Origin: Tribonema minus
Taxonomy: Eukaryota > Sar > Xanthophyceae > Tribonematales > Tribonemataceae
DNA: 64,000 nucleotides
NCBI GenBank assembly: GCA_017506865.1
Contig: JAFCMP010000457.1
Location: forward strand, 248,001 to 312,000
Direction: 5' to 3'
Both the position numbers and the translations under genes were made by a program. A model generated the notes under the pieces. The model was not told where the DNA came from, searched no databases, and saw nothing but the letters and a program-made list of their open reading frames with translations. Positions 1 to 41,964 of the stretch are shown in pieces. Numbering within the stretch: position 1 is the first letter of the stretch; the number at the start of each line of letters is the position of its first letter.

Positions 1-132
1 GCAAGTGTGTGTGTGTTATCAGGCTGTCTCTCTGTTGTGAGCAGAGGACAACCAACCAAAACGCAACTGTTGTAACCGCCGACCAACTGCAACTGAAAGT
101 TGAACATAGGTGACACACCCAGTGGCACCACA
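1..132 (-). repeat. Element C 3' LTR, partial (cut by window edge)
   Basis: Matches 21435-21566 in the same orientation. Read on the minus strand it begins TGTGGTGCCACTGGG, the same LTR start used by element B, and is preceded by a G-run polypurine tract (133-150). Confidence 0.8.
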
Positions 133-136
133 CTCA

Positions 137-1719
137 CCCCCCCTAGGGCTAAGCTAAGCCCGACAACAGGGAAGCAACCATGACTTCACTACGTGCGATC
201 ATAACACGCTACAATGCAAGACTTGCACAATAGCACATATGCTAACTGTCTCTCACCCAGCGCACATACGCTATGCACGAAAAATGCTCGCGACGCTATG
301 CTACTGCCGCTCGGCAGACAGCTACAGTGTGACTAGTGCTGCGCTTTCACTATTCCGCCGCCACCTTGCTACGTATCGCCCTGCAAAGCCCCCACTATAC
401 GCGCTAGCCTAGCCCACTGACTCCAGCTGCTTCACTCCAGTACGCTGCGGAGCATGTGCTTGATCAGGGCACATGACACCAACGAACTGATAGCTACTAA
501 GATTGCTTGGATGTGGTGGCACCGCGACGAAAAGCGGAAAGCCATTGGCAAGCAGACGCATGGCCCCGCGACGAAAAGCGGAAAGCCACTGGCAAGCTGA
601 CACCTGGCAGCCATGGGCGGAGCGCATAGCTGAGTGCGCGCTGCCTGTCCTGAGCCGTTGCCACTGTTGTAACAGCAGCATAAGTCGAAGCCGAAAACAT
701 TAACGCCGCTGAGGGCGCTGTCGCTGATGAAGAAGGCGCGTCGCCATGGCACGGGCAGCTGCACGCAGCGCGCAGCTGTGCCTGGAAGAAGGTGCCGGCA
801 CGAGCGCCGCCATGATGGTGCAAGCCACGGTGCACACGCTACGCGCAGGGAGCAACGCCGGTGCAGGCAGACAAGGGTGCAGGTTGCGGCACGCTGCGCC
901 GCGCAGAAAGGGGCGCTGGCGCAGGCGCCGCCATGAAAAGGTCCGCACCACACACACCAGCTGCTGCTGCTGCTGCGCCTCGCGCACCGCTGGCGCCAGC
1001 TGCTGCTGCTGCCGCGCCTCGCGCACCGCCGGCGCCAGCTGCTGCTGCTGCCGCGCCTCGCGTACCGCCGGCTCGCGTCGCCAGCTGCTGCTGCCAGTGC
1101 TGCCTCGCCTTGCGCACCGCTGGCGCGCGTCGCAGGAAGGGGCACTGGTGCAGGCGGCGTCACGGAACGGTTCGAGCTTGTCAGCGAAAAGATGCCGCTG
1201 AGCGCATCGCCAATACCTTCACCCCCCCCCCGATGAAGCGCCATGTGCCGCTGCTGCGGCAGGCTCCGCCACCGCAGCGCGTGTTGAAGTAGGCAGTGAC
1301 GGAACATGCGCAACTGCTGCTGCGATTCCCGTATAAGTGCTGCGCGCATAAGTGCTGCGCGCAGTTGATGCTGGTGTCACCGGCGCCACCGCGGCCGCCG
1401 AGGCCGCGGCGCGCGCCGTGCGTTGAAGCTGGCGTGAGTGTAGCACGTGCCATCACGAGCGCCGCCGTCAATGTTGAAGTTGCAGCGCACGCCGTTGTGG
1501 GCGCCGCCGTTGCTGATGTTGTCGCTGCTGCAGAAGCTGGGGCAGTCCCCACCCCCCCATGATCGCGCATGCCTCCTGCGCCGGCGTGGCATGCGCGCCG
1601 CGCCGCGTGCGCCAGCATGCCGCGCCGAGGCGCAGCTGTCCCGTGCGCCGCTGGTGGAGGTGCCGGTATGATGGGTGAGGCGGTTGGCCGCAAGTCGCTA
1701 CCTGCGCGTGAAGAGGAAG
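137..1719 (-). other. Element C 3' internal region, alanine/arginine-rich low complexity
   Basis: GC-rich sequence with no recognisable domain. It contains a short tandem array at about 955-1090 (units near 40 bp built on CTGCTGCTGCYGCGCCTCGCG) that encodes alanine-rich peptide in one direction and Cys/Ala-rich peptide in the other. Bases 137-740 are the reverse complement of the 3' untranslated part of element B (about 16985-17540). Several long open frames cross this block on both strands, which is expected from GC-rich repeats and is not evidence of genes. Confidence 0.6.
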
Positions 1720-1928
1720 TGATGAAACAACTAGCCTCCGTACTACACTTCAGCAAGTGCAGGGAACAATGCAGAGAAGACACCCACACACAACACAGCT
1801 GACCGAACTGTGCTATGTGTATTCTGGGGCTGCTGCTCTTGTCTGAGCCAAACAACCAACAACAAACAATCTCGTAAATGCCAACCGTAACAGTTACAGG
1901 TGACACTCCAACATCCAGTGTCACCACA
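1720..1928 (-). repeat. Element A 3' LTR
   Basis: Direct repeat of 18217-18408. Outer edge abuts GAAG (1716-1719). Inner edge is followed on the plus strand by TCACCCCCCCTAG, i.e. a minus-strand polypurine tract just upstream of the LTR start. Confidence 0.88.
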
Positions 1929-1948
1929 GTCACCCCCCCTAGATTGGA
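1929..1948 (-). promoter_or_regulatory. Polypurine tract of element A
   Basis: On the minus strand the bases just before the 3' LTR read CTAGGGGGGGTGAC. The same arrangement precedes the 3' LTR of B (17531-17543) and of C (133-150), which supports the LTR boundaries and the family relationship. Confidence 0.65.
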
Positions 1949-2110
1949 AAGGGTACTGCAAGGGGGACCAACTACACATATGCAACATGACTCGCAAGCC
2001 GATGCTACACATTGCAATGACCCCTGTGCACACGCAGTCAATATGCAAAGGCATGCCGCACAAGACGCCTCTTACACGCCGGGGTCTCTACCAAGCACAT
2101 GACCGTGTGA

Positions 2111-3300
2111 CTACACATGCAATGATTCCAGCTGGGCTTGTGTGCCAACTAGGAACCAAGAACCATTCGATGCATCTGGGCGCGTATTGTACAAGCTAGG
2201 GTCCAGTACTAGGGTCTGATACACCCCTTCAACAATCCAGAACACCCTATGAGCTATCTGTGTACGCCTTGTCTTCCCCTTTGAGACTACGCCCGTGAGC
2301 TCGCCCTCACACAAAGTAAGGTGCTCCTCGCCGCTTGGCTCCGTGAACTTGAAAACAGCCATAAGCTGCAGTCCGCTGATAGCTGCACTCTGCAACACCG
2401 ATGTCGCAGGTGGCTGGAGTAACGCCTCCGCCAGGGGCGCAAGCTCATACGAGCCCGCACCGCATTGGGCCAGAACGCCGCCAATACCCCGCACCTTGAC
2501 GGCGCGTCGCAGCTGACGCTTGACCACCTGAGTGTTTGAGCCCGACATTGTAATGTCGCGACAGGCAATGGCCTTGTTTAATGTAGACCAGTATTCCTCG
2601 AGTACTTGGGGGCACTCATCTAGCTGCTCGGAGTCCTCCCACGAGTCAACTATCCCCCCGCTGGTTGCACCCTCCCAGCGTATTAGGTACAGTAGGCGGT
2701 GCCCCCGCCCGCGCGCGGCCGCCGCTACACGATGTTGGAGTATCGCCTCTACACCGTGCCGCTGGAAGTTGTGAGCAGCAACGTCGTCAGTAGTGAGTGA
2801 GCCAGGTGAATGCCCGCTCCAGTGCTTCGCCAGCAGGTAGCGAGAGAAGCCTGCAGGCAATGTCTCAGGCTGCTGCCGCATGTCGCTAGGGTCGCGACTC
2901 TTCCTGGTGAGGCGCATTGATATGCGCGTAGGCCGTCCGTTGATGTCCACCAGAAGACACCCGGCCTGCACACGCTCCCCGCCGCTCTCCGCCGGGCCCG
3001 CTAATATTATGCTATAGGGCCCATGCCATCTATCCGAGAGCTTCTCGCTGAAGAGTGTGCGCTTTGCCTTGTTGAACTCCCCCGCATCTGGTGCCGGCTC
3101 CGTGTCTGCAGATGCCGTATGCGTGCGCGGCACATGGTAGTACCACACTCGCTCAGCAGCGCTGAACGACTGACGTAGTCCAAATGCCTCCGCGATCTCG
3201 GTGTTCTCGCGGAGCACCTTAGCCCGTCGCAGCGCATGATGTTGGTTGGCAATGGTGTTGGCTGAGCGCTGCCGCTCATGATGTCGAACACTAGCTGTGA
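2111..3300 (-). CDS. Element A integrase C-terminal part with chromodomain
   Basis: Part of element A pol. The stretch encoded around 2580-2700 is a clear chromodomain: a YLIRWEG strand, then DSWEDSEQL, then CPQVLEEYW, the conserved aromatic and acidic pattern of chromovirus integrase tails. In chromoviruses this domain follows the integrase and is thought to direct insertion to marked chromatin. Upstream residues (DRWHGPYSI, then the R-I-S-M-R-L segment) fit the integrase C-terminal beta-barrel region. About 110 residues follow the chromodomain and match nothing I recognise. Confidence 0.8.
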
Positions 3301-4398
3301 CACTGAAGGACGTGTGCCAGGCTTGACCAAGGGCTGTTGAAGCTTGCCCAGTATGAGGTGTAGTGCCACGGCGGCCTCGCGACCAGTAGCCAGAAGGAAG
3401 GGGGTTGCGCCGGTGGCGCGGTTGGAGGCAGTGTTGTGGGCAAATCTGATATGAGGTAGCCAGTCCACACAATTGTTCTTGGCACTATCAACTAACATGG
3501 CGAGCATCTGGGCTAGCTCCTGTATGAAACGCTCACACTTGCAGTTGCACTCAGGGTGGTATGCGGTAGTGGAAAGCTTCTTGATGCCCATCTGCTTGTA
3601 GACAGCTCGAGAGAGCTCTGCCATGAAGAGGCTGCCGCGGTCGCTGAGGAGCTTAGAAGGGGGACCGTGACGAGTGCTGTGCTGGTTGACTAAAACTTCA
3701 GCTGTGCCAGCAGCACTGTAGTCCCCAGGCTTGATGGGATAGCACCACACCCAGCCCGAAAACAGGCACATCACCACCAGTATGTACATGAAGCCGCCAG
3801 CGCTGAGGGGTAGGAGGCCAAAGTGATCAAGCGCTAGGCTATGAAAGGCGTAGGGGGGCCTCTCGCGCCATATAGTGGGCCAGCGAGACAACTTGCCGGT
3901 GTACTTGAACGCTTGGCAGGGCCAGCAATGACTAACCCAGTAGTTGACGTCAAGGGTCCAAGAGGGCCACCAGCAGTGCGCGCGGGTGCGCTACAATGTG
4001 CGCTTAATGCCCTGGTGGCCTGCCCAAGCTGAGCCGTGCATCGCCTCAAGAACTTGATCCCTAATGGACCGGGGAATGGCAAGCTGCGGAAGCGGGGATT
4101 CGGGGGTGTTGTGCACCAAGAGCTGAGCGTTGCCGCAGACGACAAGGCTGCACTGCAAAGCCCATTTCTGTACCTGGGCTGCAAGCGCCGCGTCTGCTGG
4201 CAGTCCTGCTCCAAGCAGCATGTTGCAAATTGGCCTCAGCTGAGCATCTGCGCGCTGCTCCCGCTGCCAGTCACCAGGCGTCATGACGCCCAGTTGAGGA
4301 TGCTCAGCGAAGCACTCCCATGCACCCGCCTCAGCGTCTGCCGCCTCAGCAAGCGCGGTAATCTGCTCCTCTCCCCCTCCTTGAAGCGCTGCTACCAC
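3007..4398 (-). CDS. Element A integrase: zinc-binding region and catalytic core
   Basis: The minus-strand product near 3991-4100 ends in the zinc-binding H2C2 lead (HGSAWAGHQGIKRTL). The core follows at 3007-3891: first Asp in LALDHFG, second Asp in LLSDRGSLF, and the Glu in CERFIQEL with the usual spacing after HPECN. The core should catalyse 3' processing and strand transfer of the element's cDNA. It lies directly between RNase H and the chromodomain, the standard Ty3/gypsy order. The segment is not in one continuous frame. Confidence 0.82.
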
Positions 4399-4419
4399 CT
4401 CCGTGCAGATGTTGATGTA

Positions 4420-5679
4420 CTCTGCTGTTGCAAGTGCCTCCAGCCGCTCCCACTCGTGGGCCTGCAGGCAGTACGCCTCGAGCAGCCGCTCGCGCTCGCT
4501 CTCCTCTGCATCTTGTGGTGTAGCAGGGACAGGATTGCGGCTTGGCCCGTCGGCGTTGCCGTGTGACGCGCCCTTCTTGTAGCGGATGGTGATGTTGAAG
4601 GCGCTGAGGAACTCGCTCCAGCGCGCGCCGCGCGCGGTGCGCTCGCGAAGGCTGTCGATGTACTGGAGAGCGCGGTGGTTGGTGTAGAGGACAAACGGCG
4701 TCCCCTACAGGATGTGCCTGAACTTCTTGATGCCGAAGACGATGGCGCCGGCTTCCAGGTCGGTAGTAGACCAGTTGCGCTCATTGGGCAGAGTCGCGCG
4801 AGATGTGAAGGCGATCGGTTGCTCCGCGCCGTCGTTGTTGGCCTGCGAGAGCACTGCGCCAAAGCCCTCCTTGCATGCGTCTGTGGCAAGGACGAAGGGG
4901 CGCTCGCCGGTGCTGGCGCGCGCGTCGTCGGGGTACTGCATGCAAGTGTGAAGCGCCAGGGCTTCATTGACCTCGCGGATGGCTTGCTGTTGAGCACTGC
5001 CAACTACGAAGTCCACCCCCTTGGCCATCAGATGGGTGAGCGGTGCTACCAGCTTGGCCATGTTCTGAATGAATCGCCGGTAGTAGTTTGCGAGGCCAAG
5101 CCACGCACGCAGCTGAGAGATGTTGCAGGGGATGGGCATCTCAAGTAGGGCTTGAACTTTGGATGGATCTGGCCTAATGCCATCAACGCCCACAATGTGC
5201 CCCAGGAACTTGATGTGCTTACACCCTATGTGCAGCTTGCTGGGGGCTAGCTTCATCCCATGATGCTCTAGGCGCTGAAAAAGGGCATTGAGGTCGTCGA
5301 GGTGCTGAGCCGTGGATGTGGAGTGCACAATGACGTCGTCAATGTAGGGTTGGACGCGCTCTAGGCCGGAAAGCACCATCTGCATGAGGCGTGTAAAGTG
5401 CCCTGGCGCCCCCGCCGCCCCCTGTGGGCACCGTAGCCACTCGTACAAGCCAAACGACGTGACCATGGCAGTGAGGGGGATGCTGTCTGCATCTATGGCA
5501 CTAGTGAAGTAGTACCCACTGGTGATGTCCATGGTGGTGAAGACCTTTGAGCCCCCCAAACTATTGAGAAGGTCCTCTATGTTGGGAATGGGGATCTGGG
5601 GGATCTTGGTCTGGGCGTTCAGCTTCTTGTAGTTGACGGTGATACGGGCGGTGCCATCAGGCTTGAGCACTGCCACCAC
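4420..5679 (-). CDS. Element A reverse transcriptase and RNase H
   Basis: The RT palm is unmistakable: an NYKKLN fingers motif, TTMDITSGYY with the first catalytic Asp (about residue 50), LRCPQGA, and the YIDD box near residue 111, then FLGHIVG and the RRFIQNMA thumb motif. The RNase H domain starts near residue 260 with VLATDACKEGFGAVLSQ and continues through TSRATLPNERNWSTTDLEA. RT copies element RNA to cDNA and RNase H removes the RNA strand. The N-terminal approach to RT (about 5777-5890) lies in the neighbouring frame. Confidence 0.9.
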
Positions 5680-5776
5680 TGGGGATGCCCACTCGGAGTT
5701 GGAAGGGCGAATGATGCCAGCAGCCAGCAGCTTGTCGATTTCGACCTTGACCAGCCGTCATTGCAGGAGAGTACCT

Positions 5777-8326
5777 TTATGGACGGTCATGGTGCGGTGT
5801 GCTGCCCTCTTTGAGATCAAAGCGGAAGGGCAATGTGGTACAATGCCCTATGTCCCACTTGTCTTTTGAGAACATTTTGCTGCTATACTGAGCGAGCAGC
5901 AGGCACAAACACGCCACCTGATCAACGTCCCATCCCTGCAGGTCAACACGCACTGCCAGCATGTAGTCTGGCAAGTGCTTGCGTGCCTCAGCCAAAGCAG
6001 CATTAACCTTAGGGTCTTCGTGGACGTATGACCCCAAACTCAAGCCGCCGCTGTCGGGAATGTGTACTTTTGCGCTCCCACTAGGCTCAAAGTCAACGGC
6101 CTCACCGAGGTGTTGCTGCAGCGCCTCTCGCACGGCTGCTGCACCCTTCGCAATAGTCGCGTCAGCGCTGCTGCCGGCGTCACCCTCCGGCTCCGCCTCG
6201 CAGCGCAAAATGTCAGTGCGCAGGTCCAGCACAAAGATGTGCTCCTCCCTCCCAGCGCACTCTAACGCCGCCGCGGCGCCTGCCGCGTGCGCGCGCTGCG
6301 CCGCTGTATCGCTTGTCGCTGATGCTGCCGCTACAGCATTGCTCCCACAAGCCCTTGCCGCATGTGCAGCGCCATCAGGCGCCGCTGCTGCTGTAGAGCG
6401 CCGCTGCGCCGCTGCCGCCCGGGCGGTGCTCGCCCGCTCCACTGCGGTGGCCATGCGCACTGCGACTGGTTCGGCGCCAGCATGCGCCGCTGCTGTCGCA
6501 GTGCTCCATTGCGTTGCGACTCCGTGCGCGGCGTTGGTCGGCGCCGCCGCAGAATCGGCGCATGCCGCGGCAGGCGCAACGCCTGTAGGCGCCGCTGCCG
6601 CCGCAGCGCTCCGCTGCGCGTCCGCCGCTTGGGCGGCGCTCGCTGGCGCCACCGAAGAGACTGCGCGCGCTGCAGCTAGCGCGGCGCCCACAGGCGCTGC
6701 TGCTGCTGCAGCACTCCGTGGTGTCACTGGTGCGCGTGCGGCGCGCGCCGACGCATATGCTACACCAGCAGCGCGCGCCGCGAATGGCGCGGCGCCCTCG
6801 GGCGCCGCTGCCGTCGCAGCGCTCCGTCGCGCGGCTGTTGCCTGCGTGACCTCCTTATGTGCCGCCCTTGAGGCAGCTTGGGCCGCAGCGCGCACGGTGC
6901 AAGCAGGCACCGATGCCGCCGCAGCGTCCCGGCGTGCAGCCGCTGCCTGCGCAGCAGCAGCAGTGTCGCCGTGCACGGGGCCAGAAGACGTCGCTTTTGT
7001 CACAGAGCTCCGCGGCGCGGCCGCTGACTGCGCGGCACCCTGCGGCGCTGCGGCAGCAGCCCGCGGCGCACTGCGCGCAACGCCTGTATATGCTGCCACC
7101 ACAGCAGCGCTCGCCAGCGCCGCCGCAGCAGCGCTCGCCGGCGACGCCGCAGCAGCGCTCGCCGGCGCCGCCGCAGCAGCGCTCGCCGGCGCCGCCGCAG
7201 CAGCGCTCGCCGGCGCCGCCGTCGCAGCGCTCGCCGGCGCCGCCGCAGCTGCAGCAGCCTGTGCTTGAGGGGCGCGCGCTCCGCGCGCCACACGTTTGCG
7301 CGCCTCCTCTGCAAGAGCCACTCCATACTTGCCGAAAGCGTGGTGGGTGCCAGTATTGATGAGGGTTTGTACTGGATCCGGCAGCGACGATGCCGCCGCC
7401 TGGTCCACGACATCATGCAGCAATCCGCTCTGCAGCAGGATCCCCCCCAGGAGGTCCGCCATTTGCGGGCACACCGCGTTCGCCAGCATCTGTGAATAGG
7501 CAGTGACGTCAGGCGGCTCTGGAGCATCCCACTTGTACGAGGTGGGGAACCTGTGAATGGCGCGCAGCGCATGCCAGGGTAGGTACTCCGCGCGCGCGTG
7601 CTCAGCCGGGTCCTGCGTAGCATCCTGTGGCCGCACGTCGATGTTAGGCTGCAGGTTTTGGCGGCATGTGTAGCCGCGAATGGTCGGCGCCGGGCCGTCC
7701 ATAGAGTGCACCTGTTTGGCCCTAGTGTTGCGGCCAACTGTTGCAAAGAAGTCGCGCCGCTGACCGTTGGAGTCAAGTACGTCGCCGGTGACGTTGCGCA
7801 CGGTGTCGTACTCAGCGTGCTGCTTGGCATATGTCAGCAACTGCACTGCCTGGTGCATAGACGCCTGCATGCGCGCGCTGTCATGCTCGCCAGTGCCAGG
7901 TCGCCCCAGCAGCCAAAACACACGCGTGCGCGTCTGAGCAATGCGACTGTCTGCACCAGTGATCACTAGCTCCTGCTGCACCGTGAAGCCGCCGTGTGCT
8001 GCGCAGCGCAGAAACTCCGCCAGCTCCGGTGCCGCCCTAAGGCCCGGAACACTTTCAATCTGCAGTAGTCGGCAGGTCTCTGCGCCCATTGCTACCTCCA
8101 GCATGTAGTAGAGGTGCTCCATGCCCAAAGCCGTCTCCCCCTCCCCTGCTGTTGAGGACTTCTGGCAGGGGGGGCCCCCTAATAAGACCTCGGCGCGCAG
8201 CCGCCCCATATCTGCAATGAGCTCTGCGCGCGTAGATGGGTCCGCCATATCCCGGCGGCGGACGTCCGTATGAGGGTCTATCCGAAGAGCGCGCTCCTCA
8301 GAGTCAACGGCTAGCTTGACGTTCAA
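5777..8326 (-). CDS. Element A methyltransferase motifs IV-X, alanine-rich linker, and RT approach
   Basis: The first 300 residues hold the bulk of a C5-cytosine DNA methyltransferase. Motif IV is LLGGPPCQKSS (about residues 46-57) with the catalytic Cys; a motif VI equivalent reads IESVPGL in place of ENV. Motif VIII is QTRTR (about 130). Motif IX-like MDGPAPTIRG, a RFPTSY segment and motif X ANAVCPQMADLLGG (about 280) follow after a target-recognition-sized region. About 400 residues of alanine-rich tandem sequence come next, including repeated PASAAAAA octets (about 7090-7250), and then a segment typical of the N-terminus of gypsy RT (LLAQYSSKMFSKDKWDIG). The enzyme family transfers methyl groups from S-adenosylmethionine to cytosine C5. 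Placement between protease and RT shows capture by the retroelement rather than a host gene. Confidence 0.88.
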   Translation of the reverse strand: MNVKLAVDSEERALRIDPHTDVRRRDMADPSTRAELIADMGRLRAEVLLGGPPCQKSSTAGEGETALGMEHLYYMLEVAMGAETCRLLQIESVPGLRAAPELAEFLRCAAHGGFTVQQELVITGADSRIAQTRTRVFWLLGRPGTGEHDSARMQASMHQAVQLLTYAKQHAEYDTVRNVTGDVLDSNGQRRDFFATVGRNTRAKQVHSMDGPAPTIRGYTCRQNLQPNIDVRPQDATQDPAEHARAEYLPWHALRAIHRFPTSYKWDAPEPPDVTAYSQMLANAVCPQMADLLGGILLQSGLLHDVVDQAAASSLPDPVQTLINTGTHHAFGKYGVALAEEARKRVARGARAPQAQAAAAAAAPASAATAAPASAAAAAPASAAAAAPASAAAASPASAAAAALASAAVVAAYTGVARSAPRAAAAAPQGAAQSAAAPRSSVTKATSSGPVHGDTAAAAQAAAARRDAAAASVPACTVRAAAQAASRAAHKEVTQATAARRSAATAAAPEGAAPFAARAAGVAYASARAARAPVTPRSAAAAAAPVGAALAAARAVSSVAPASAAQAADAQRSAAAAAAPTGVAPAAACADSAAAPTNAAHGVATQWSTATAAAHAGAEPVAVRMATAVERASTARAAAAQRRSTAAAAPDGAAHAARACGSNAVAAASATSDTAAQRAHAAGAAAALECAGREEHIFVLDLRTDILRCEAEPEGDAGSSADATIAKGAAAVREALQQHLGEAVDFEPSGSAKVHIPDSGGLSLGSYVHEDPKVNAALAEARKHLPDYMLAVRVDLQGWDVDQVACLCLLLAQYSSKMFSKDKWDIGHCTTLPFRFDLKEGSTPHHDRP

Positions 8327-8398
8327 GTAGGGCTGAAGCCCCTCTAAATTGAGCTGACCACATTTGATGTTGACCTTATTTTTTCCAAAATGTTAGTT

Positions 8399-10992
8399 TT
8401 AAACTATCAATGTTCGATCTCTCTCGGTCGGTTTTGATGCATTATTTGCGGGATACAGAAATACCAACATTAATTGCTGGTTCGCCAGGCCGCCAGCGCC
8501 GCAGTAAACCTCTACCGCCGTGGCGCGCGCGTTCGGGTCCCGTTCCAGCACGCTGTCGGGTACCTCACGTAGCGGCCGCGCCTTGCCCAGCACGGTGCCA
8601 CGTGGCAGCGAGAGGGGCTCCCCCCGCTGCTCGAGCTTGACCGGCTTGGCATGCAGCCCAACCGTCAGCTCGCGTGTGTACATGTGGTTCAGGAATTCCT
8701 CCGCAATGGTCACAAGTGCTGTGTCCAGTTCTCGCGGGCAGGAGACGACAGGCGTGATCCCATCAGACTCCATCACTTGAACCCAAACTGTCTGCACACC
8801 ATGTTGAAGGCCATCCAGCTCTGTTGCGACGCGCACTACTGCCACCCAATCGCGTTCCTCCGCGTAGGTGTACACTGGGACTTTGGGACTGAAGCTGGGG
8901 GTGGGCTCCGCTGATGGCTCGCCATACACGTATGTGGGCCCACTGCCACTATGACTTGCATGCCACTTATGTCTGCTGATGTGGTCACGCCCAATGATAA
9001 TGTCGTGTGGCAGGTGTGGTACAATGAGCGCCAGCTGAGTGAAAGCTACCCAGTCTGGGCCGTCAGCCTCAAAGTGAAGCGCTACAGCATGGGTGACGAG
9101 CTGTGGCTTCTTGGATGTGTCAACACCGGCTACTGCCCTAGGTTTGCTGAGTTGGTGAACATCCCGCTGCTCTATGGCTCCTGATGCAACTAATTTGCGG
9201 AATGCTTGCTCCCTGATGGCAGTAACTGAGGCCCCAGTGTCCCAGAGAATGTCCCTAGAGAACTTGCAACGTAGTGCGCGCGCAGACCGTAAACGGGCCT
9301 TGAACCTAGAGTGCACGTCAGTGTAGAGTTTGCCCCTTACGTTGGGCATGCTTGCCTGCTGTGGTACAGGTAGTTCTGCGGCCTCCATCGCTGCCACCTC
9401 AGCGTAGTATGCCAAGACCGCCCCGTCATCAGCTCCGTCCTCCGGCGCCCACATGGCCAGTATCTCGAAGCAGCGCTCAGCAGTGCGCGCCTCCTCTGCC
9501 ATGGCTATCTCCACCGCTGTCAGGCCCGCCTCGCCGTGCAGCACCTCGTCGATGGCGCCAACGGTCTCTGCTGCCAACGCCCAGCTGCGCATCCGCCGCT
9601 GCGGCTCAGGTTGAGCTGTGCCATCCACTTTGAAAGCATGAAGCCGCTGCAGAGCTATCAGCCTGCGCTGCTGCTCCGCTGCAAAGGCGGCGTCGTCGGC
9701 AGCATGCGCCGCCGCAGCAGCGTCGCCTCCGCTGAGTGGTGCTGAAGGCGATCTTGAGGTTTGCGTGGCAGTCGCAGTTGATGTCAGAGTTGAAGTTAGT
9801 GTAGAAGATGGAGTTGTCGTGTGTCGCGCCGCAGCAGCTGCTGCAGCGACTGTCGCCAAATGTGGCGCCGTTGCCGGCGCAGAAGTTGCAGTTGTAGCCG
9901 TACTGCAGCCACTCACTGGTGCTGGTGGTATCCTCACCCCCCCTTGCGATGACGCGTGCGCGCCAACTCCATGACCCGCCGCAGCGTGCACGGGTGTCCG
10001 TGCTGGAGTACCAAGCTCCTGAATAGGGCTGAGGGGTGCTACCGGCTGTCGAGCGCGCTGCTCCTGCTGCAGGCGCTCCGCGCGCGCGCGCCGTAGCCGC
10101 GCGCCGCTGGACTTACGTCGCCCCAAAATACTAGTAGGCCATCGCTGTACAGTCGTAGTTGTTGTCGCCGGCGACTGTGCAGCACCATCAGGCGCTGCCA
10201 ACGCCGCCGGTCTCCATTGCGCCGTTGCTGCTTGAGCAGCGTTTGTGAGCGCCTCCTCAGCAGCAACGCTCAACGGAAGCTGCGCCGCGCTTGCTGGTGC
10301 TGCTGCCGTCGTAACGCTCTGCTGCGCGGCTGCTGCGTGGGCGTTGCTCGCCGCTGCTGCAGAAGCCGCATGCACTGCAGACAGCGCAGCGCCCAAAGGT
10401 GCCGCTGCTGCCGCAGCACTCCGTGGTGCTGCTGGTGCGAGCGCGGCGCGTCGCGGCGCCGCCACACCAAAAGCACGCGCCGCGACTGGCGCGGCGCCTG
10501 AGGGCGCTGCTGCCATCGCAACGCTCCGCTGCGCGTCATCCCCTTGAGCGGCACTCGCCGGCGCCACTGAAAAAGCTGCGCGCGCTGCAGCTTGCGCGAC
10601 GTCCATAGACGCCGCTGCTGCCGCAGTCCTCCGGGGTGCTGCTGGTGCGTGCGCGGCGCGCGCCGGCGCCGCCACACCAGCAGCACGCGCCGCGACTGGC
10701 GCGGTGCCCGAGGGCGCCGCTGCCATCGCAGCGCTTTGCTGCGCGTCATCCGTTTGGGCGGCGCTCGCCGGCGCCCCCGCAGAAGCCGCGCGTGCTGCAG
10801 CTTGCGCGACGTCAGTAGGCGCCGCTGCTGCCGCAGCACTCCGTAGTGCCTCTGGTGCGTGCGCGGCGCGCTGCGGCGCCGCCACACCAGAAGCACGCGC
10901 CGCGACTGGCGCGGCGCCCGAGGGCGCCGCTGCACTCGTGCCCCCAGTCGGCAGCAGCACTGTCTGCCCACTCCACCAAAGCGTGGTCAGCG
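8399..10992 (-). CDS. Element A alanine-rich region, aspartic protease and methyltransferase motif I
   Basis: Beginning next to the element B insertion, about 260 residues are alanine-rich imperfect repeats (period near 70 residues, about three copies, 10200-10990). A Ser/Thr/Ala-rich section follows, then a retropepsin-like protease with ILWDTGASVTAIRE near 9240 and a later IIGRDHISRHKW flap/strand region. Near 8475-8515 the product ends in VEVYCGAGGLA, motif I (SAM-binding) of C5-cytosine methyltransferases, very like the YSGCGGMS form in plant CMT/DNMT1 enzymes. Motif I and motif IV therefore occur in order on the same strand with the spacing expected of one enzyme. No capsid or CCHC domain is present. 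Confidence 0.82.
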
Positions 10993-11081
10993 ACAGATGT
11001 GGTGCCACTGGGTAGTGTCACCTGCTTCAACTCTCTGTTTCCTCAGAATTGGGACAGTTCTGCTCAGCCAGAGACAGTTCT

Positions 11082-12239
11082 GCCTCTTCCACGCCCGCTA
11101 AAACACAAACTAGCGCGGAAGAAAGCAGCTGCAGCGGCGGGCAGGAGGACGACGACGACGACTGGGAGGCCTATGCTGACGAGATCTGCAGAAAGGTAGT
11201 GCCCCGCCGCCGGCGCGGTCACTTCACGCACGGACTACAAGCCCGCCTTTCAAATGTTCTTCGACGTCAATACGAGGACTGCCTGGTGGAGGACCTAGAG
11301 GCTGCCTCGGCTGGTGCCGTGGGCAAGCCGACGCAGGCTACACTTATTGGTGACTTGCGTGACACCAGCCGCCGCCGCCAACAGGCTAGCGCGCGGGTCC
11401 TGGCGCAGCTGCGCAGCCAGCGTGCGTCCGGGGCAATGGCGTGGATGAGCGTGCCACCCGCTGCCAATGACCGCCCGGGTGCGGCGCCCATGTCCAGTAT
11501 GGCAGCAGCCACGATGATTATGGTTGCGATCTTTATAGACGGGTGGGGCATACAGGGCGAGGTGTGCCCATGGCGGTGCAGTGACGTGAGCCCCACCTCC
11601 ACGCATGCGATCAGCTGCCCCAGCCAGCACATACGGGGGCACAACGCGACACACACTGCCCAAAAGCGGTGCCTACAGCGCATCTTGAGACAGCACCATG
11701 TCTCTATTGTCCGCAATGAGGACGCTAGCGTCTTCAAGGTACCGGGGTATCGGGCGGACACAGTCATTGACCCAGGGTGTCTGCACTTTAGCAGTGCATA
11801 CCGTAACAAGGGAATAGTGCTAGACACAAGTGTGCGCGCGCCCACAGCGAGCTCGTACCTGACAGGCAAAACAAATGCCTCGAACACGGACGGCTATGCT
11901 GCTGGGGTGGGGGAGGACGCGAAGGTCAAGCACCACACCGGCACCTTGACGTCATCTTGGGCTTTTGTGCCATTCGTGCAGGAGTCGTACGGACGGCTGG
12001 GCAAGCAGACAAGCCTTTTTGTTAAGGAGTTGGCAATGCACTCAGCACTGTGCTCAGGGGGGGGGAAGGCAGATGTGTTACGCAAGGCCGGGTTAGCTAA
12101 GCGTCAGATCCACATTGAGCTGAGCATATCGCTGGCGCGGGAGTTGGCGGAGCGCGTCATGGCATACACACGTGGAGCGCGAATGCTGGGCTGTGTTGCG
12201 GCGCCGGTATCCAAACTCCTAGGGCACAGCGCAGACTAG
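11082..12239 (+). CDS. C-terminal part of LINE ORF: CCHC and restriction-like endonuclease region
   Basis: Open for about 385 residues to TAG at 12237-12239. The pattern CPWRCSDV, then H, then C, then a His-rich stretch resembles the CCHC knuckle that precedes the restriction-like endonuclease of R2/R4-type LINEs. Farther on, YRADTV, GIVLDTSVRAP and EDAKVKHH fit the PD-(D/E)xK-like core, followed by FVPFVQESYGRLG, typical of the domain's end. In intact elements this domain nicks the target DNA. No RT is present, as expected for a truncated copy. The family assignment is inferred from motif order only, so another early-branching LINE clade is possible. Confidence 0.6.
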   Translation, partial: ASSTPAKTQTSAEESSCSGGQEDDDDDWEAYADEICRKVVPRRRRGHFTHGLQARLSNVLRRQYEDCLVEDLEAASAGAVGKPTQATLIGDLRDTSRRRQQASARVLAQLRSQRASGAMAWMSVPPAANDRPGAAPMSSMAAATMIMVAIFIDGWGIQGEVCPWRCSDVSPTSTHAISCPSQHIRGHNATHTAQKRCLQRILRQHHVSIVRNEDASVFKVPGYRADTVIDPGCLHFSSAYRNKGIVLDTSVRAPTASSYLTGKTNASNTDGYAAGVGEDAKVKHHTGTLTSSWAFVPFVQESYGRLGKQTSLFVKELAMHSALCSGGGKADVLRKAGLAKRQIHIELSISLARELAERVMAYTRGARMLGCVAAPVSKLLGHSAD

Positions 12240-12317
12240 GCTGCTGCGTTGACGCAAGCTTTTCGATTGCATAGGCAACCCGGCCTCCCTTGGGCCTTTA
12301 TAAATACAAGTCCATAC
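11082..12317 (+). mobile_element. 5'-truncated REL-type LINE fragment inserted in B's LTR
   Basis: 1236 bp absent from the matching 3' LTR and flanked by a 5-bp duplication GTTCT (11077-11081 and 12318-12322). Its 3' end reads CCTTTATAAATACAAGTCCATAC without a poly-A tail. The same 3' end recurs in reverse complement at 33670-33709, and related tails lie near 43300-43570 and 50560-50850. Absence of the RT and a fixed 3' end point to target-primed insertion of a 5'-truncated copy. Confidence 0.72.
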
Positions 12318-12493
12318 GTTCTTGGTTGGCGGTTACAGGAAGTTGAGTTTGGTTGGTTGTTTTCTGTCACTTTCGGAGTGAGCGACAGCCTGATAACACA
12401 CATACTTGCTGGAGTGCTGCTGTGGGTTTCAGTGTGCTGTCTACTCTGTCTGTCACCGCTCTGGTTCGTCAACGTGCAGTGAAACCACGTCAT

Positions 12494-12511
12494 TTGGTTT
12501 CGGTACAAACG
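12494..12511 (+). promoter_or_regulatory. Putative primer-binding site of element B
   Basis: TTGGTTTCGGTAC lies one base after the 5' LTR. The equivalent places in A (minus strand, about 18199-18216, TTGGTTTCCGAGTAC) and C (minus strand, about 21345-21362, TTGGTTCACGGTAC) carry close variants. TGG pairs with a tRNA CCA end; which tRNA would prime cannot be told by eye. Confidence 0.55.
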
Positions 12512-12704
12512 ACGCAGTACAGACGACCTGGCTGTTGCATCGGCAGCGAAGTCGCGAACCAGAGCACCCTCACACGCGCACGTCTAGTGCCCAAGGAGCT
12601 TCGTCACTTCTTGGACCACTCTCGGCGGAGAGCATCGCACAGTCCACTGCGCGTGGCGTCACGAGCAGCACGTCAGCCGAGCACGGCTCACCTACTGCCC
12701 TTCT

Positions 12705-14394
12705 GTGGCGGATACTCCGCTGCAGCTCGTTCAGAGGCGAGACTTGAAGCCTATGGACGCGGGCGGATCGCCTACTATGGCCAATCCGGACGCTAATGCG
12801 TATCACAGGCGCGCTCCCTCTACGACCCACTGGCAGCCGAGTGCAGCAGCTGGCGACAGCCAATCGTCAGCAGCGACATCGGCAGGCCCATTCATCGCCC
12901 GTAATGACCTCGGCTCGGCGGCTAAGGCATCTAGCAGCGGTGACGAGACTTTAGCCCGCGGTTTGGCCGTTGACTACCCTGGCACTTTCAACACGCCTAC
13001 TCGTGGCCAAGCGAGCATCCGTTCCACGAGCACCGGCAGTGTTGACGGCCTTTTCGGCCATTCGGAGCAGCAGGATGTCGACCGTTTCGACGCCAGTCCT
13101 CGCAGCATCCGACAAACGACACTCATCAGCGGCAGGGGGGGTGAGGAGCAGCTGCGTTGCCAAGAGCAGCTGCTTGCGTCAGGCGTCCCCGAGCACACGC
13201 GTGCCCCACTGAGCATCGCCTTTGCTGATTTGCAGCAAAAGTACGCAAAGGTCGAGGCGCAGCTCATGGCGCATCAGGAAGTGGCGGTGGCGCAGGAGGC
13301 TGCGCAGGCACAGTTCGCGGCGGACGTCCGCGCGGATCTCAACGCGTTCCGGCGGCGCCTTGATCGCGCAGAGTGGTGCGCAGAGGAGAACAAGGTGCGC
13401 GCCACGAATGCAAAGCAGTTGGCATCACACCTTGCCAACACAATCTCCCAGCACGTCCTTCCGCAAGTGGACGAGCTACAAATGCGGCAGACGGAGGTAG
13501 CACAGCACGCGGCATGCGAGGTGCAAGCCGTCACGGATTGCGTTACCAGCCTCACCACCCGTGTCGACGAGCTCATGACGTCCATAGCTGGCCTGCGCGA
13601 GGCTCAGGCTACGCGATTCTACACGCCCGCTTCAGCCTTGCAGACTTCTGCACATGCCGAACTTTGCGAACGCAACCTGCGCGCGCTTGGCAGCAGCGGC
13701 GGCCGCGACGTCAGCCGCCGCGCTGTTGACGTGCGCTCCATGCTCAGCTCCCACGCCGCGCAACCCTCGGCAGCACCCGCGCGCTCCGTCGCTAGCGCGC
13801 CAGCGCAGGACCTCTCAGGCCGCGCGTCATCATCGTCGATCGCGGCTACCATCCCCGTCCACGCACACACATCTCAGCCGGATCGCTACCCATCTATGGT
13901 CGCCGCGCCTGAGCCTCACGGCGGCGACTTCGCCTCAGCCTCCAGGCGCAGCAGCCTGCTGGACATGCTCAAGCCTGACGCGCGCGCGCAGCTCGACGGC
14001 GCGGCACGTCAAGCCAGCCAGCCGCATGAATACGCTATCACGCAGACGCTGCTAACGCAGGCGCGCCTTGAGGAGCAAACAAGGGCAGAGGCGCTGGCGG
14101 CGGCGGCGCAGCGCGAGCACGACCGCGCTCAACAGCAGCTTGCGGAGCGGCGCCAGCAAAACATACAGCACCGCTGGGAGGAGGAGATGGATGCACGGGC
14201 AGCACTGCGGCAGGGCGCCATGGACGCGCGCGAGCGCGACCTAGATGCTCAGCAACGCGCGCTGGAGCAGGCCCAGTCGCAGCTGTCGCGCGCACGCGCT
14301 GACGCTGACTACGACGCCGACAGTTACAGTGCCCCCGGACGCAGCAGCCATGCTGGTGGCGCGCGTCGCGCCGCGCCTGGCGCCGGCGCCAGCG

Positions 14395-14425
<31 letters not shown>

Positions 14426-15740
14426 TGGCGGCGGCGGCAGCGGCGGAGGCGGCGACGGCGGCGGCGGCGGCGGCGGCTTGAGTGCCAGCAGCAGCGGCAC
14501 AGGCGGCGCCCGCCCTAGCGCCGCAGCGCCGGCAGCAGCAGCAGCGGCGGCGGCGGCACCAATGGCAGACATCTCCGGCTTCGACGACGAGGGCTACGCG
14601 CTCATGCGCTTCTCCGTCACGCTCCACGAGAAGCAGTACGTGAAGACTAAGGTCGACACGGACAGCGTCACAGCGCTCACCCTCCTCAAGAAGCAGCTTC
14701 CAGCCAAGTTCAAGGCTGCTGCTACCGCCCTCCGCCAGAAGAAGCTTTGGCCGAACCTGCGCAACGCTGACGACTTCGGCTGCGACTGGTTCGAGCAGGC
14801 TGTGTACGGCATCTGCAACTGCATCACGAACGGCGGCGGCAACCACCATCGCCTGGCGCAGCTGCAACGGCAAGCGCGTGCCTGGGTGGAGCAGGGGAAC
14901 GCGCTCACGCCCGCAAAGCGCGACGGCGCGCTGCTTGAGTGGCTGTTTCACCGCATCGCTACCTTCCTTGAGATCGAGGAGCCCACCACCATCGCAGCTA
15001 GCCTCATGAGCTGGTCACTGCGTGGGGGCCTCTCTCTAAAGGACTTCATCATCGAGTTTGCGGACGCCAAGACCATGGCGACCTCCCTCGACCCCTCGCT
15101 GGACGTCATCGTCCTGTCAGCGCTCCTCCAGCTACTTCGTCGTCACTACACGAACCTGTCAGCGCTCTTCAATCCCATCAGCGAAGCCCCCGCGCGGTAC
15201 ACCTCGGAGGATCTGCTGGCAATTCTTGCCAAGGAGGCCGGCGGCGGCGCATTGCACACCTCGCAGCCCCCTGACCCCCGTTACCCAGTATTTCCCACAG
15301 ACCTTGCGTCGTACAATAAGGGGGTTGGCGGCGGCACTGGCAGCAGCACTGGTGGCGCAGTCAAGCAGTCGCCCTACAACAGTCCCGCTAGCGACAGCAG
15401 CGCAGCACTCACTGTGGATCAGCGCCAACAACTTCAAACGGCGTACGCGATATACGAGTTCCACACTGCACCTCAGGGCCGCGCTTGCTTCAACTGCGGC
15501 AGCACTGACCACGGATTCGTCAACTGCGATGCAGACTACAACAGCGCAAACTGGGACGCTGCTGTCAAGCGGCTACCATGGGTACAGAGATTCAAGCCGC
15601 ACAGCGACGACGACTTCAAGCAGCTGTGCGCACGCGCGAGGCAGGGGATCAGCAAGGGCGAGCAGGGTAAATCAGCGATAGCGGCACACAGGCGCGACGG
15701 CGACGGCACGGGCCGCAACCATGGCGGTCACAACACCTAG
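12705..15740 (+). CDS. Element B Gag polyprotein
   Basis: 1011 residues in one open frame. After a Ser-rich start there are coiled-coil stretches (about residues 150-290 and 440-540, rich in Glu, Gln, Arg and Ala), then an LLDMLKPDARAQLDGAARQ block also present in element C. A poly-Gly/Ser run (about 563-590) is followed by a capsid-like helical domain (about 620-850), and a CCHC zinc knuckle CFNCGSTDHGFVNC lies near residue 926. Gag would assemble virus-like particles and package element RNA. The capsid segment has a clear homologue on the minus strand at 18430-20570 in element C. It looks whole. It is longer than typical gypsy Gag because of low-complexity insertions. Confidence 0.85.
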
Positions 15741-15742
15741 GG

Positions 15743-17543
15743 GTGCAACCCCGCGCCAGCCCTCGGCGTGGGGGAGCACTTGGGGGTACAAGTGTCGTGG
15801 GGGGTGGGAGTGACGCCCTGCCCCAGACGACAGTCAGCGCGCACGGCGCGCCCGTGGTTGCAGCAGCTTCACTACAGCAGCAGCAGCCGCACATCATCGC
15901 TCAGCAGTGGTCAACTCCGGCGGCATCAGCTCCTCAGCACCAGCAGCCGTCGATCATGGCAGCAGCATCATCCCTGCAGCAGCAGCTGCCATCTCTTCTG
16001 CACACGCACAGCACTGCCACACATGGAACCAGCGCACCCGCGCCGGGCACGGCGCCGGGAATGGCTTCCACACTGCGGGCACCCGCACTTTCCTTCACAC
16101 CTGCATCGCCATCCCCGTCGCAGCAGCGCGTGCTGCCGCCGCGCCGCCACAACGCGCAGCAGCGCTCGCCGGACTTAGAGGCGGCAGGATTTGCGACTTC
16201 ATACTCTGCAGCTGTGCTGGCATCACGCACGACGAGCGCCGCGCCGCAGCGTGGCGCATTGGTGCGTCGCATGTCAGCGACCAACATAAGCATCGGGGAA
16301 TCGCGCGATCAAGGGGGGGTGGGGGCTGCCCCAGCTACTGCGGCAGCAACTCCAGCGACGGCGGCGCCAGCGACGGTGCACGCTACTTGAACTGCCACAT
16401 CGACATCAACTCCTGCTCCAAGCCCAGCAGCACCCACTTCAGCGGCATCTCATTGGTGTCGACGTCAACTTCAACTGCTCCGACGTCAACTACGTCAGCG
16501 CTTTGGTCTGCGCGCAACGTGCACTCCAACGCTTTCGTCTAAGCGCAACTCGCGTGCCGTGGCCTATGCCGTGGCGCCGCCTGCGCTGGCGACTCTTCCT
16601 ACGTGCAGCACGCGCACCGCGGCCTACGCCATGGCGCTGCATGCACTGGCGACTATACCGACACGCATTCCGCGCACCGTGGCCTACGCCATGGCTGCGC
16701 CTACGCTGGCAACTGCTTCTGCGCGCAGCGTGCGAGCCGCGCCTCATGTCGCAGCGACGCCTGCGCTCAGCCTGGTGACTTCTTCTACGCGCAGCCTGCG
16801 CACCGCGGCCCGCGCCGCGACGGCGCCTGCGCTGGAGACTTCTTCTGCGCGCAGCGTGCGCTCTGCGGCCCGAGCCGCGGCGGCACCTGTGCTGGCATCC
16901 TCTTCTACGCGCAACACACGAGCGCGACGTGCGACACCATCTCGCATACGCAACCATCTACATAGGCGTCCGCGGCGACGCCCTCTTCATCAGTGACAGC
17001 GCCCTTAGCGGTGCTGACGCATTTGGCTCCAGCGGCCGACATAGCTGCTGTTCCAGTGGCAGTGGCTCAGCATCGACGGCGCGCACTCAGCTTGTACGCG
17101 CCACCCGTGGCTGCCAGGCTTCTGCTTGGTCACCCGCTTTTCGTCGCGGTGCCACCACATTCAAGCGATCATATCCAGCAACGCGTGGGCACGTGCCCTG
17201 ATCAAGCACATATGTTCGGCGGCGTACTGGAGTGATGCAGCTAGAGTTAGTGGGCTAGGCTAGCACATACAGTGGGGACTATGCAGGGCGACAAGCAGCA
17301 AGGCGGAGGCAGACATATATACTATAGTGCTGTGCTAGTTCTGCTGTAGTTGTATGCCACATGACAGTAGTACAGATCCGCATTCGTTTTTCGTGCATAG
17401 CATACAGGCGCTGGGTGAGAGACAGTTAGCATGTGTGCTATTGTGCAGGTCTTGCACTTGTGTCATGTTATGACTGCAGTGGCATAGTGAAGTCATGGTT
17501 GCTTCCCTTTTATCGGGCTTAGCAGAGCCCTAGGGGGGGTGAC
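15743..17543 (+). other. Element B 3' internal region: alanine-rich sequence, 60-bp tandem array, polypurine tract
   Basis: About 16550-16920 is a tandem array of roughly six degenerate 60-bp units (peptide period near 20 residues, built on RTxAYAMAAPxLATxSARSV in one frame). The remainder is GC-rich low complexity. The polypurine tract (17531-17543, TAGGGGGGGTGAC) closes the region directly before the 3' LTR. No enzyme domain was seen. Confidence 0.6.
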
Positions 17544-17789
17544 TGTGGTGCCACTGGGTAGTGTCACCTGCTTCAACTCTCTGTTTCCTCAGGATTGGGT
17601 CAGTTCTGCTCAGCCAGAGACAGTTCTTGGTTGGCGGTTACAGAAAGTTGAGTTTGGTTGGTTGTTTTCTGTCACTTTCGGAGTGAGCGACAGCCTGATA
17701 ACACACACACACTTGCTGGAGTGCTGCTGTGGGTGTCAGTGTGCTGCCTGCTCTGTTTGTCAATGCTCACGTGCAGTGCAAGCACGTCA
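17544..17789 (+). repeat. Element B 3' LTR
   Basis: Begins TGTGGTGCCACTGGG and ends CACGTCA. Uninterrupted counterpart of the 5' LTR. Followed by CAGA, the target duplication. Confidence 0.87.
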
Positions 17790-18216
17790 CAGACACTGGA
17801 CCTGAAGTGCTGTCGCTGCTCCCGATGGTGGACAAGTGGTGCGGAGCCGCCGCAGCAGCGTCAGTTGCAGGCCCTGGCACAGGCTCTGTTCTCACTGCGC
17901 TGCCGCTTGCTAGCTCGTTCGCACTCTGGGCTGGTACGACTGCTCCACCAGCAGCGCCTCCAGCCGCGGCGGCCTTGATCGCAACAGCATCTGCCAGTGA
18001 TGCTGCGCGTCCCACGGACAAACTCCGTGACCTCTGCACACGCCTCGGCTCCGGGTTGTGGCCATAGGGCAGCTTGGCCAACACAACTCCAGAGCTCCGC
18101 GTTGCGCGAGAGTTTACTCCTGATGCAGCACGCGCCGAGTCCTGCTCGTGCGCCATGGTACCGCTATCGCCTGGTGGGTTTGGTCAAAGGTCGTCTTTTC
18201 GTACTCGGAAACCAAC
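17790..18216 (-). other. Element A 5' leader and start of its coding region
   Basis: Lies between A's 5' LTR and the element B insertion. It contains the putative PBS (18199-18216) and an open stretch (17790-18156) encoding an Ala/Ser-rich peptide without a recognised domain. It may be the N-terminus of A's first protein. Confidence 0.55.
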
Positions 18217-18408
18217 TGATGAACTAGCCTCCGTACTCAGGGAACAATGCAGAGAAGACACCCACACACAACACAGCTGACCGAACTGTGCTATGTGTAT
18301 TCTGGGGCTGCTGCTCTTGTCTGAGCCAAACAACCAACAACGGACACTCTCGTAACTGCCAACCGTAACAGTTACAGGTGACACTCCAACATCCAGTGTC
18401 ACCACAGA
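18217..18408 (-). repeat. Element A 5' LTR
   Basis: Nearly identical to 1720-1928. Outer edge followed by GAAG (18409-18412). Confidence 0.88.
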
Positions 18409-18429
18409 AGACACCGCGGGCGCCGCTGC

Positions 18430-21340: not shown

Positions 21341-21362
21341 GCGTTTTGTACCGTGAACCAAT

Positions 21363-21566
21363 TGAGGGGTTTGCACTAACACTGACCAATGACAGACAGA
21401 GACGAGGGCACTGACACTGCACAACAGCACTCAAGCAAGTGTGTGTGTGTTATCAGGCTGTCTCTCTGTTGTGAGCAGAGGACAACCAACCAAAAACGCA
21501 ACTGTTGTAACCGCCAACCAACTGCAACTGACAGTTGAACTTAGGTGACACCCCAGTGGCACAACA
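21363..21566 (-). repeat. Element C 5' LTR
   Basis: Right part (21435-21566) is a direct match to 1-132. Left end is set by TG next to the PBS-like site. The outer edge abuts a long C run. Confidence 0.75.
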
Positions 21567-22774: not shown

Positions 22775-23065
22775 ATGTACTACTACCAGGACGGTCATAT
22801 CATGTGATGCAGAATACATTGATATATAGTACATGCATGTTGTGATGATTCAGAAGTGCATCGGTCATTGAAAAACCGCTCGAGGTCCATAGTATGGGAA
22901 GCTTCGACACTCAATCTGCACATGCAGCTCGTGATGCACATCAGCCTGAGCCCTGGGCTGCTCACCCTGAGAAGGCTGTACAAATTGTACCACCGTTTTG
23001 CATGGCGCAGGCAGGTGCAGGTGCATATATATATAGCACGGCAGGTGCGCATAGGCTCAAGAAGC

Positions 23066-23262
23066 CCCCACAGTGTAACACTATTTCATCGGTGTCTCCA
23101 GTTAGGTTCGTAATTTCACCTCCTCCGTCAGCGTGGCAAAGGGCTAGGTCAGTGTGCTCTCGAGGCTGTCTGTAAATCGTCAGGGCCGAAGATCGAGCCC
23201 TATCTGGTTCCTGACCCATGTTTTTTTTCTTTCCTGATTAAGTTTTGTCGAAATAAGTTAAG
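23066..23262 (+). repeat. SINE-like repeat, copy 2
   Basis: Second copy of the unit at 21609-21786, with the same A-box-like, B-box-like and T-run order. Confidence 0.45.
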
Positions 23263-23589
23263 ATGATAGTAGGTTGTTGGCCTCACTCAGACGCACCAGA
23301 AGAGCTCTTGGTTGTTGAAGTTGAGATGGGTGGAGCAGTGCTATTGCACGTTGAGCAGTGACATGACAGTTGAAGTTGGCATGAAATTGAAGTTTGAATA
23401 TCACCATTGAAGTTCAATATCACATCAGGATCAATATCAACTTCAACAAGCGAGTAGTCAGCAGATGCCCCTGACATAGGGCTACAGCATGCCATAACCC
23501 AACTTCAATATCAGTTCTGCCCTGAAGACTTTACTACTGGACAAGGGCCTCGGTTGCTTCTTGGCTTTCAGGGTCGCGGATGAGCGGAG

Positions 23590-23807
23590 CGGATCCTAAT
23601 GCTATGCCCTCTGGATGAATGCGCAGGTTCTGCGACGCGCATGTACAAATGGAGAAAATCTGCGCAGTCATTGGCTGTCAACGACCGTGCCAGCCTGCGC
23701 CAAGGGGAAGCAGGGCGTGCACTGAGCATGGGAGGATTGAGCAGGCTTTTCAGTGGGAGAAGGCAAAGGGAGGGTACATGGCACGTGCCGCGGCACATAA
23801 CAGAGAG
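23590..23807 (+). pseudogene. Cysteine-cluster exon, possibly from a KDZ-type transposon
   Basis: Encodes about 50 residues with ICAVIGCQRPC, then ACTEHGRIEQAF, a C-x4-C-x3-C-x9-C-x2-H cluster like those preceding KDZ transposases, and ends at a good splice donor (AGAG^GTGAGC at 23807). It lies 1 kb upstream of a more KDZ-like stretch on the same strand. Remote similarity only. It could also be an exon of an unrelated zinc-binding protein. Confidence 0.35.
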
Positions 23808-24378
23808 GTGAGCACCAACTTCCTTCAGTTAAAATTCAAGATTGATGCATGCATAAAAGTAGTGACAGCAGTCATGCCTTCATTCATCTTCAAGGCTGAT
23901 GTAACTGTGTTTGTATCAAGGGCCTGTGCATGCCATCAATTTCCGCATGTAATTGCTTTTATGAAAGTTATGCATACACAATGTTTGAAGTATGAAGGCA
24001 GTCCATGTTATCATTCATGCCCAGCACATCAGGGTTATTGTCGAGTTGCGAGTTGCCAAGATGTTGTGAACTGTTTGTATCCTTCTGTTGCGAGCTTGCC
24101 ACTGCAGTCACTACATTATGTTATAGCTTGTGCATCTTGTAAGCGTAAGCAATTGTGAGCTGCCTCATTGCGTTGCAGCACGTGTACTACTAGTTATTGC
24201 CTATACTTGATTCATGAGTCCTGCATGTCACATGTGCACATATGTGAGTCGCACCAGGTGGCGATTGAATATACCATGTATTCATCTGATGATTTACCAC
24301 ATGAGTTCATGACACGCACTCTGTTTTGCTACAAAAAGACAACAGTGTAGGCATTGTTTCAAATCCATTAAATGCGCG

Positions 24379-25443: not shown

Positions 25444-25446
25444 TGA

Positions 25447-26325: not shown

Positions 26326-26327
26326 AT

Positions 26328-41958: not shown

Positions 41959-41964
41959 GGCTTA

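Follow-up and report, generated by a model that had tools for sequence, protein, structure and literature searches.

Cytosine-C5 DNA methyltransferases have been reported in retroelements of dinoflagellates and streptophyte algae; where the carrier is a gypsy or DIRS element, the enzyme belongs to the DNMT3 family (PMC5890265; PMC12344493; cited papers stand here and below for the parts of them available to us). The closest described system is KnitGypsy-Dnmt3 of Klebsormidium nitens, in which a C5 methyltransferase lies in the Pol open reading frame (ORF) of an algal gypsy element (de Mendoza et al. 2018, PMC5890265). Here we analyze a 64,000-nucleotide stretch of the Tribonema minus genome (contig JAFCMP010000457.1, positions 248,001 to 312,000; the window), in which a retrotransposon of Ty3/gypsy order, element A, has captured a C5 methyltransferase within its Pol. 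KnitGypsy-Dnmt3 combines a DNMT3 enzyme, DIRS-like repeats and a charophyte host, whereas element A combines a non-DNMT3 enzyme, ordinary long terminal repeats (LTRs) with a target-site duplication and a stramenopile host. SymbioDIRS-Dnmt3 and SymbioLINE-Dnmt of Symbiodinium are likewise retroelement-borne C5 methyltransferases, with evidence of purifying selection there, but they belong to DIRS elements and long interspersed nuclear elements (LINEs), their enzymes are DNMT3 or of an orphan lineage, and SymbioLINE is set beside element A by its description only (PMC5890265). An initial reading of the window from its letters alone (the sequence-only reading) had named both hosts as sources of LTR elements with methyltransferases; the Symbiodinium elements are LINE and DIRS rather than ordinary LTR elements (PMC5890265). 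An orchid Ty3/gypsy element is also reported to have gained a nucleic-acid-modifying enzyme, an N6-methyladenosine (m6A) demethylase domain, though in a land plant and for removing methyl marks from RNA rather than adding them to DNA (PMC9289625). We recognized no report for Tribonema or another stramenopile among the papers listed by searches of the open PMC library, which does not cover subscription papers and preprints.

The best overall explanation, to which we give a probability of about 70%, is that a methyltransferase was captured into Pol and methylates the element's complementary DNA (cDNA). The capture is the firmest part, and it rests on the anatomy of the element, the in-frame fusion to protease and reverse transcriptase (RT) leader, the fold of a relative, motif conservation and recurrence of the slot; methylation of the cDNA is a tentative proposal that we would place somewhat below even odds. 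If this is indeed a separate, non-DNMT3 capture in a stramenopile Pol, retroelements would have gained DNA methylation repeatedly and to their benefit, and one could test, in a host for which DNMT5 is reported, whether an element marks its own cDNA.

A methyltransferase domain inside Pol

The Pol region of element A, with the LTRs that bound the element, reads as follows.

1720..18406, minus strand: element A, an LTR retrotransposon with an LTR at each end; 9.9 kb once nested element B is subtracted
18217..18406, minus strand: 5' LTR of A, 190 nucleotides, followed by the primer-binding-site-like sequence TGGTTTCCGAGTACG
8402..11017, minus strand: ORF with an alanine-rich leader, aspartic protease (DTGAS, 9227-9241) and methyltransferase motif I (8483-8515); 48% identical to relative P0002 over 323 amino acids
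8345..8482, minus strand: 138-nucleotide AT-rich insertion just after motif I, 34% GC against mostly 58-73% around it, with two in-frame stops
7396..8344, minus strand: C5-cytosine methyltransferase with motifs IV, VI, VIII, IX-like and X (Pfam PF00145, E 1.5e-7; relatives' profile, E 3.8e-145; tree)
5780..7395, minus strand: alanine-rich linker, then the RT N-terminal leader, in the ORF that holds methyltransferase motifs IV-X (ORF reading; leader likeness to P0008)
3994..5757, minus strand: RT (YIDD) and RNase H in two ORFs (4708-5757 and 3994-4704), then the start of an H2C2 zinc finger
3010..3990, minus strand: integrase core (rve, E 1.1e-7, 32.4 bits against a cut-off of 32.6)
2114..3484, minus strand: C-terminal ORF with a chromodomain (Chromo PF00385, E 6.1e-7)
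1720..1928, minus strand: 3' LTR of A, 209 nucleotides, with the polypurine tract AGGGGGGGTGAC at about 1929-1940

Every motif that the sequence-only reading had quoted between protease and RT is found on the minus strand, all sharing one frame and following the stated order: DTGAS and VEVYCGAGGLA (positions as listed), GGPPCQ (8162-8179), IESV (8048-8059), QTRTR (7922-7936), PAPTIRG (7673-7693) and ANAVCPQ (7463-7483), with the RT motif YIDD (5335-5346) in a different frame. That reading had set the domain at 7450..8520; it does lie there, but its extent is slightly wider (7396-8515) and motif I falls in a separate ORF. The C5 methyltransferase motifs of PF00145 (I, IV, VI, VIII, IX and X) occur in order, motif IX being loosely matched, and the Pfam DNA_methylase profile matches the ORF that lacks motif I. 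A profile built from eight of the 11 close relatives described below, with the window left out, matched one of 1,356 six-frame window ORFs of at least 30 amino acids (5780-8392) and none of the reversed decoys, which rules out a chance run of motifs. Motif alignment and profiles thus place the domain among the C5 methyltransferases, within the Pol of a Ty3/gypsy-order element, as had been proposed.

The element itself is identified by its LTRs, whose 170-nucleotide core is 98% identical, with indels elsewhere, near the end; by GAAG on both flanks (1716-1719 and 18407-18410), a target-site duplication; and by the order protease, RT, RNase H, integrase. Pfam supports the latter domains (RVT_1, 1.9e-23; RT_RNaseH_2, 4.3e-23; H2C2, 3.7e-5, under its cut-off), and the chromodomain lies behind the integrase, as in chromoviruses, although chromodomain gypsies of Ectocarpus are reported to be unrelated to chromoviruses, and those of stramenopiles may form a group apart (PMC12477816). 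Pfam found no protease in the ORFs of element A; the protease is called from the DTGAS motif and from likeness to P0002, itself only a sub-cut-off Pfam protease match.

The ORFs at 8402-11017 and 5780-8392, which hold motif I and motifs IV-X respectively, are in the same frame and separated by the 138-nucleotide insertion, which is missing in all five relatives that cover the site (P0001-P0004 and P0007). We rejected an intron at 8345-8482: by eye, no GT-AG pair was seen that would bring back the reading of the relatives, and retrotransposition should have removed an intron. The length of the insertion is a multiple of three, and it has no second copy within the window (one 15-nucleotide chance match, E 1.0). 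Pol is also broken by stops or frameshifts near 5777, 4705, 3991 and 3484-3007, and because of these and the insertion we regard this copy of element A as decayed; it can itself no longer perform a methylation role. Alanine-rich repeats with a 105-nucleotide period, 62-70% alike, flank the protease and methyltransferase on both sides (6366-6770 and 10281-10895).

Relatives of the domain and its class

A protein search with the 871-amino-acid ORF (region 1-345) returned P0001 and P0002, both 58% identical and covering 81% and 37% of the query, and a search led by P0001, which scored only the 8,000 candidates with most words in common, added 24 matches, nine of them close (P0003-P0011, with 52-83% identity to the P0001 piece) and 15 distant (P0012-P0026, 24-33%). 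The 11 close relatives, proteins of JGI or ENA origin, are 43-67% identical to the window copy in a multiple alignment with frameshifted parts included. P0002 has a protease motif, DSGAS, followed by the methyltransferase, and P0008 has the methyltransferase, a linker and a 16-amino-acid stretch of RT leader (62.5% identical, E 4.5e-4 in a two-sequence comparison), so that the slot recurs in other family members on both its upstream and its downstream side. Among phage records, 93 of 50,697 matched, all below 60% identity, and no relative was found in the viral contigs and genome contigs scanned.

In the phylogeny the family forms a single clade, set off by a long stem. The tree included four phage sequences, was built without CMT, DRM, DNMT4, DNMT5 and DNMT6 rows, and omitted family members P0004 and P0007-P0011 (fragments or frameshifts) and distant P0016 and P0020 (different motif order). 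Motif IV, GGPPCQ in the window and GGPPCT in the relatives, differs from the GGSPCN of DNMT3A, and by this motif the window enzyme is not DNMT3-like. Grouping with DNMT3A was also rejected by the approximately unbiased test (p-AU 0.023), a result that is weak by itself, with one DNMT3 row, a long branch and six tests; the other groupings gave p-AU values of 0.281 (DNMT1), 0.551 (DNMT2, whose row is partial and long-branched), 0.142 (3g7u group), 0.071 (HaeIII) and 0.047 (HhaI). A profile search of the PDB matched four chains with profile A2 (3g7u at 2.7e-8, two DNMT2 and HaeIII) and, with profile A4, 3g7u at 2.5e-4, two HaeIII and a chance glutathione transferase match; neither search had DNMT1 or DNMT3 among its matches. 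DNMT3 was likewise absent among the best 50 structure matches listed (Foldseek, VIA), which we do not use as evidence.

One relative has the fold of solved C5 methyltransferases. Bacterial and phage enzymes (the 3g7u prophage enzyme, M.HaeIII and M.HhaI) resemble the family in fold, motif order and single-domain size, but structural alignments with such methylases reach only 14-20% identity, the distant protein matches 24-33%, and the family keeps to its own stem. The sequence-only reading had left the choice between a further capture and the known lineage in another host. Since the enzyme is not DNMT3-like by motif IV, unlike the gypsy and DIRS captures (PMC5890265), it looks like a separate capture, the published ones being set apart here by their descriptions, and the same lineage is unlikely.

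A possible role on element cDNA

The proposal that such elements methylate their own cDNA comes from de Mendoza et al. (PMC5890265), who found that SymbioDIRS DNMT3s gave CG methylation in yeast, while the Klebsormidium gypsy and SymbioLINE enzymes were inconclusive. Applied to element A's family, the element protease would free the methyltransferase from Pol, the freed enzyme would be packaged in the particle alongside RT, and it would mark the double-stranded cDNA ahead of integration. A host maintenance system of DNMT5, HELLS and CDCA7 could then copy the mark, each new copy thereby arriving premarked; fresh copies would be concealed or kept quiet, and damage would be limited. Reported proteins of T. 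minus include DNMT5, HELLS, a CDCA7-like protein and a member of a DNMT4-like clade, and DNMT5 is described generally as a maintenance enzyme (PMC10538959). The window flanks (23000-38000 and 42000-64000) have an observed/expected CG ratio of 0.63-0.65 and a TG/CA ratio of 1.56, a depletion that fits a CG-methylated genome.

Several observations weigh against capture followed by cDNA methylation. The copy in the window is broken by its insertion and stops, and its motif VI reads ESV, with serine in place of asparagine, where seven of the nine relatives covering the motif have ENV. All relatives are fragments, none of which by itself has the full set from motif I to motif X or reaches from protease to RT, and P0002, P0004 and P0006-P0008 look frameshifted. 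No protein named as T. minus was among the matches of the two methyltransferase searches, though the database includes T. minus proteins, and the best family score against the NCBI dcm model is 58.4, under its cut-off of 100.65. CG depletion of element A gave no clear signal of self-methylation, and heavy self-methylation is not indicated: its CG ratio is 0.78-0.93, above the flanks, with 1.01-1.18 for element B and 0.89-0.96 for element C, elements whose ages differ. Comparison of the window with P0002 finds the methyltransferase 59.7% identical (134 amino acids) and the protease-bearing stretch 47.7% (323 amino acids), which suggests that conservation of the methyltransferase is no weaker than that of a part the element needs, although this is a protein-level proxy from a single pair.

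Four other explanations can be weighed against these data. That a host or bacterial gene fragment merely dropped into one element copy, outside Pol proper, might be expected of a single copy in the window, lying where three elements are nested and other insertions have occurred; yet motif I shares an ORF with the protease and motifs IV-X share one with the RT leader, the joins are repeated in other contigs by P0002 and, over a short stretch, by P0008, and the family forms a single clade, leaving this account nearly refuted. A more substantial, though still unlikely, alternative is that the enzyme acts on RNA, either element RNA or the transfer RNA (tRNA) primer, in the manner of DNMT2. The DNMT2 grouping was not rejected and did slightly better than the free tree, DNMT2 was the second PDB sequence match for profile A2 (8.7e-5), and an RNA role has been suggested for SymbioLINE-Dnmt (PMC5890265), but the DNMT2 row has the defects given above, DNMT2 disappeared with the larger profile A4, a weak point, and motif IV is GGPPC rather than SPPC, also weak because fold and motif do not reveal substrate.

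It is equally unlikely, in our judgment, that the domain has lost methylation and acts as a module for binding DNA or targeting integration. The residue after the catalytic cysteine is threonine and not glutamine in all seven aligned relatives, and the serine in motif VI and the broken relatives would suit such a module; against this, the cysteine itself is kept in seven of seven relatives, ENV as stated and QTRxR in eight of nine, more than binding requires. Use of the methylase to mark or silence invading viral DNA, to the benefit of host and element, has been proposed generally for retrotransposon methylases (PMC6338049), but the slot in Pol suggests packaging with the element's own cDNA, and we consider this role improbable. 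Capture into Pol with methylation of element cDNA remains our preferred explanation.

Nested elements and a possible gag/pol split

Three nested LTR elements fill the leftmost 21.6 kb of the window; element A was inserted within element C and is itself interrupted by element B.

10998..17789, plus strand: element B, nested in A, with gag and no pol, and CAGA on both sides
12588-15740, plus strand: element B gag with a CCHC knuckle
10998-12492 (including a 1.2-kb insert) and 17544-17789, plus strand: element B LTRs
1..21566, minus strand: element C, gag-only, the host site of the A insertion
19177-21449, minus strand: element C gag ORFs, with the 5' LTR up to 21566 and the 3' LTR at 1-132, cut by the window edge

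A protein search with the element B gag gave five matches, all from T. minus; across the region, the best of them (JKP88DRAFT_247321) is 100% identical. T. minus, a xanthophyte, belongs to the stramenopiles, and the description of element A as chlorophyte-like is not borne out. That gene model (P0027) has a start matching the plus strand from 746 and continues into the B gag, to about 16965; it thus seems to span element A and is probably an annotation artefact.

Element A appears to have no gag of its own: the tblastn matches of P0030 gag (residues 641-1020) in the window, which holds one A copy, are confined to B and C, and the gags of B and C, 61.5% identical to each other over 200 amino acids, have no significant blastp match among the A ORFs. 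Conversely, the RT, RNase H, integrase and chromodomain of A match only themselves in the window (E 1e-3), and the five T. minus gag proteins have no Pfam pol domain. Pol-only A and gag-only B and C nevertheless have in common an LTR start and a polypurine tract. The 3' junctions align with a score of 61 for A and B, against 28 for the best of 500 shuffles, and 50 against 32 for A and C; LTR likeness is weaker, at 35 against 30 for A and B and 48 against 33 for A and C (500 shuffles). The sequences after the 5' LTRs of A, B and C are alike by eye (TGGTTTCCGAGTAC, TGGTTTCGGTAC and TGGTTCACGGTAC).

One possible, though doubtful, interpretation is a two-part retrotransposon, in which A gives protease, methyltransferase, RT and integrase, the B/C family gives Gag, one particle copies both and the methyltransferase marks both cDNAs. 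The common LTR start, polypurine tract and primer-site-like sequence would let a single particle copy both partners, and a methyltransferase in the common Pol would couple their epigenetic fate, a further surprise if true. It is more likely that A lost its gag and that B and C are ordinary non-autonomous elements. B and C resemble the plant gag-only non-autonomous LTR elements (TR-GAG) in having gag without pol, but here the candidate helper itself lacks gag, so dependence may be mutual.

A scan of the window found no tRNA. The 1.2-kb insert in the B 5' LTR (11082-12317) has GTTCT at both edges and a 407-amino-acid ORF (11016-12239) without a Pfam match. Away from the nest, a minus-strand ORF at 39727-40962 encodes a hAT dimerisation domain (2.5e-8), and the ORF upstream of it (41077-41961, minus strand), without a Pfam match, may be the remaining part of a transposase.
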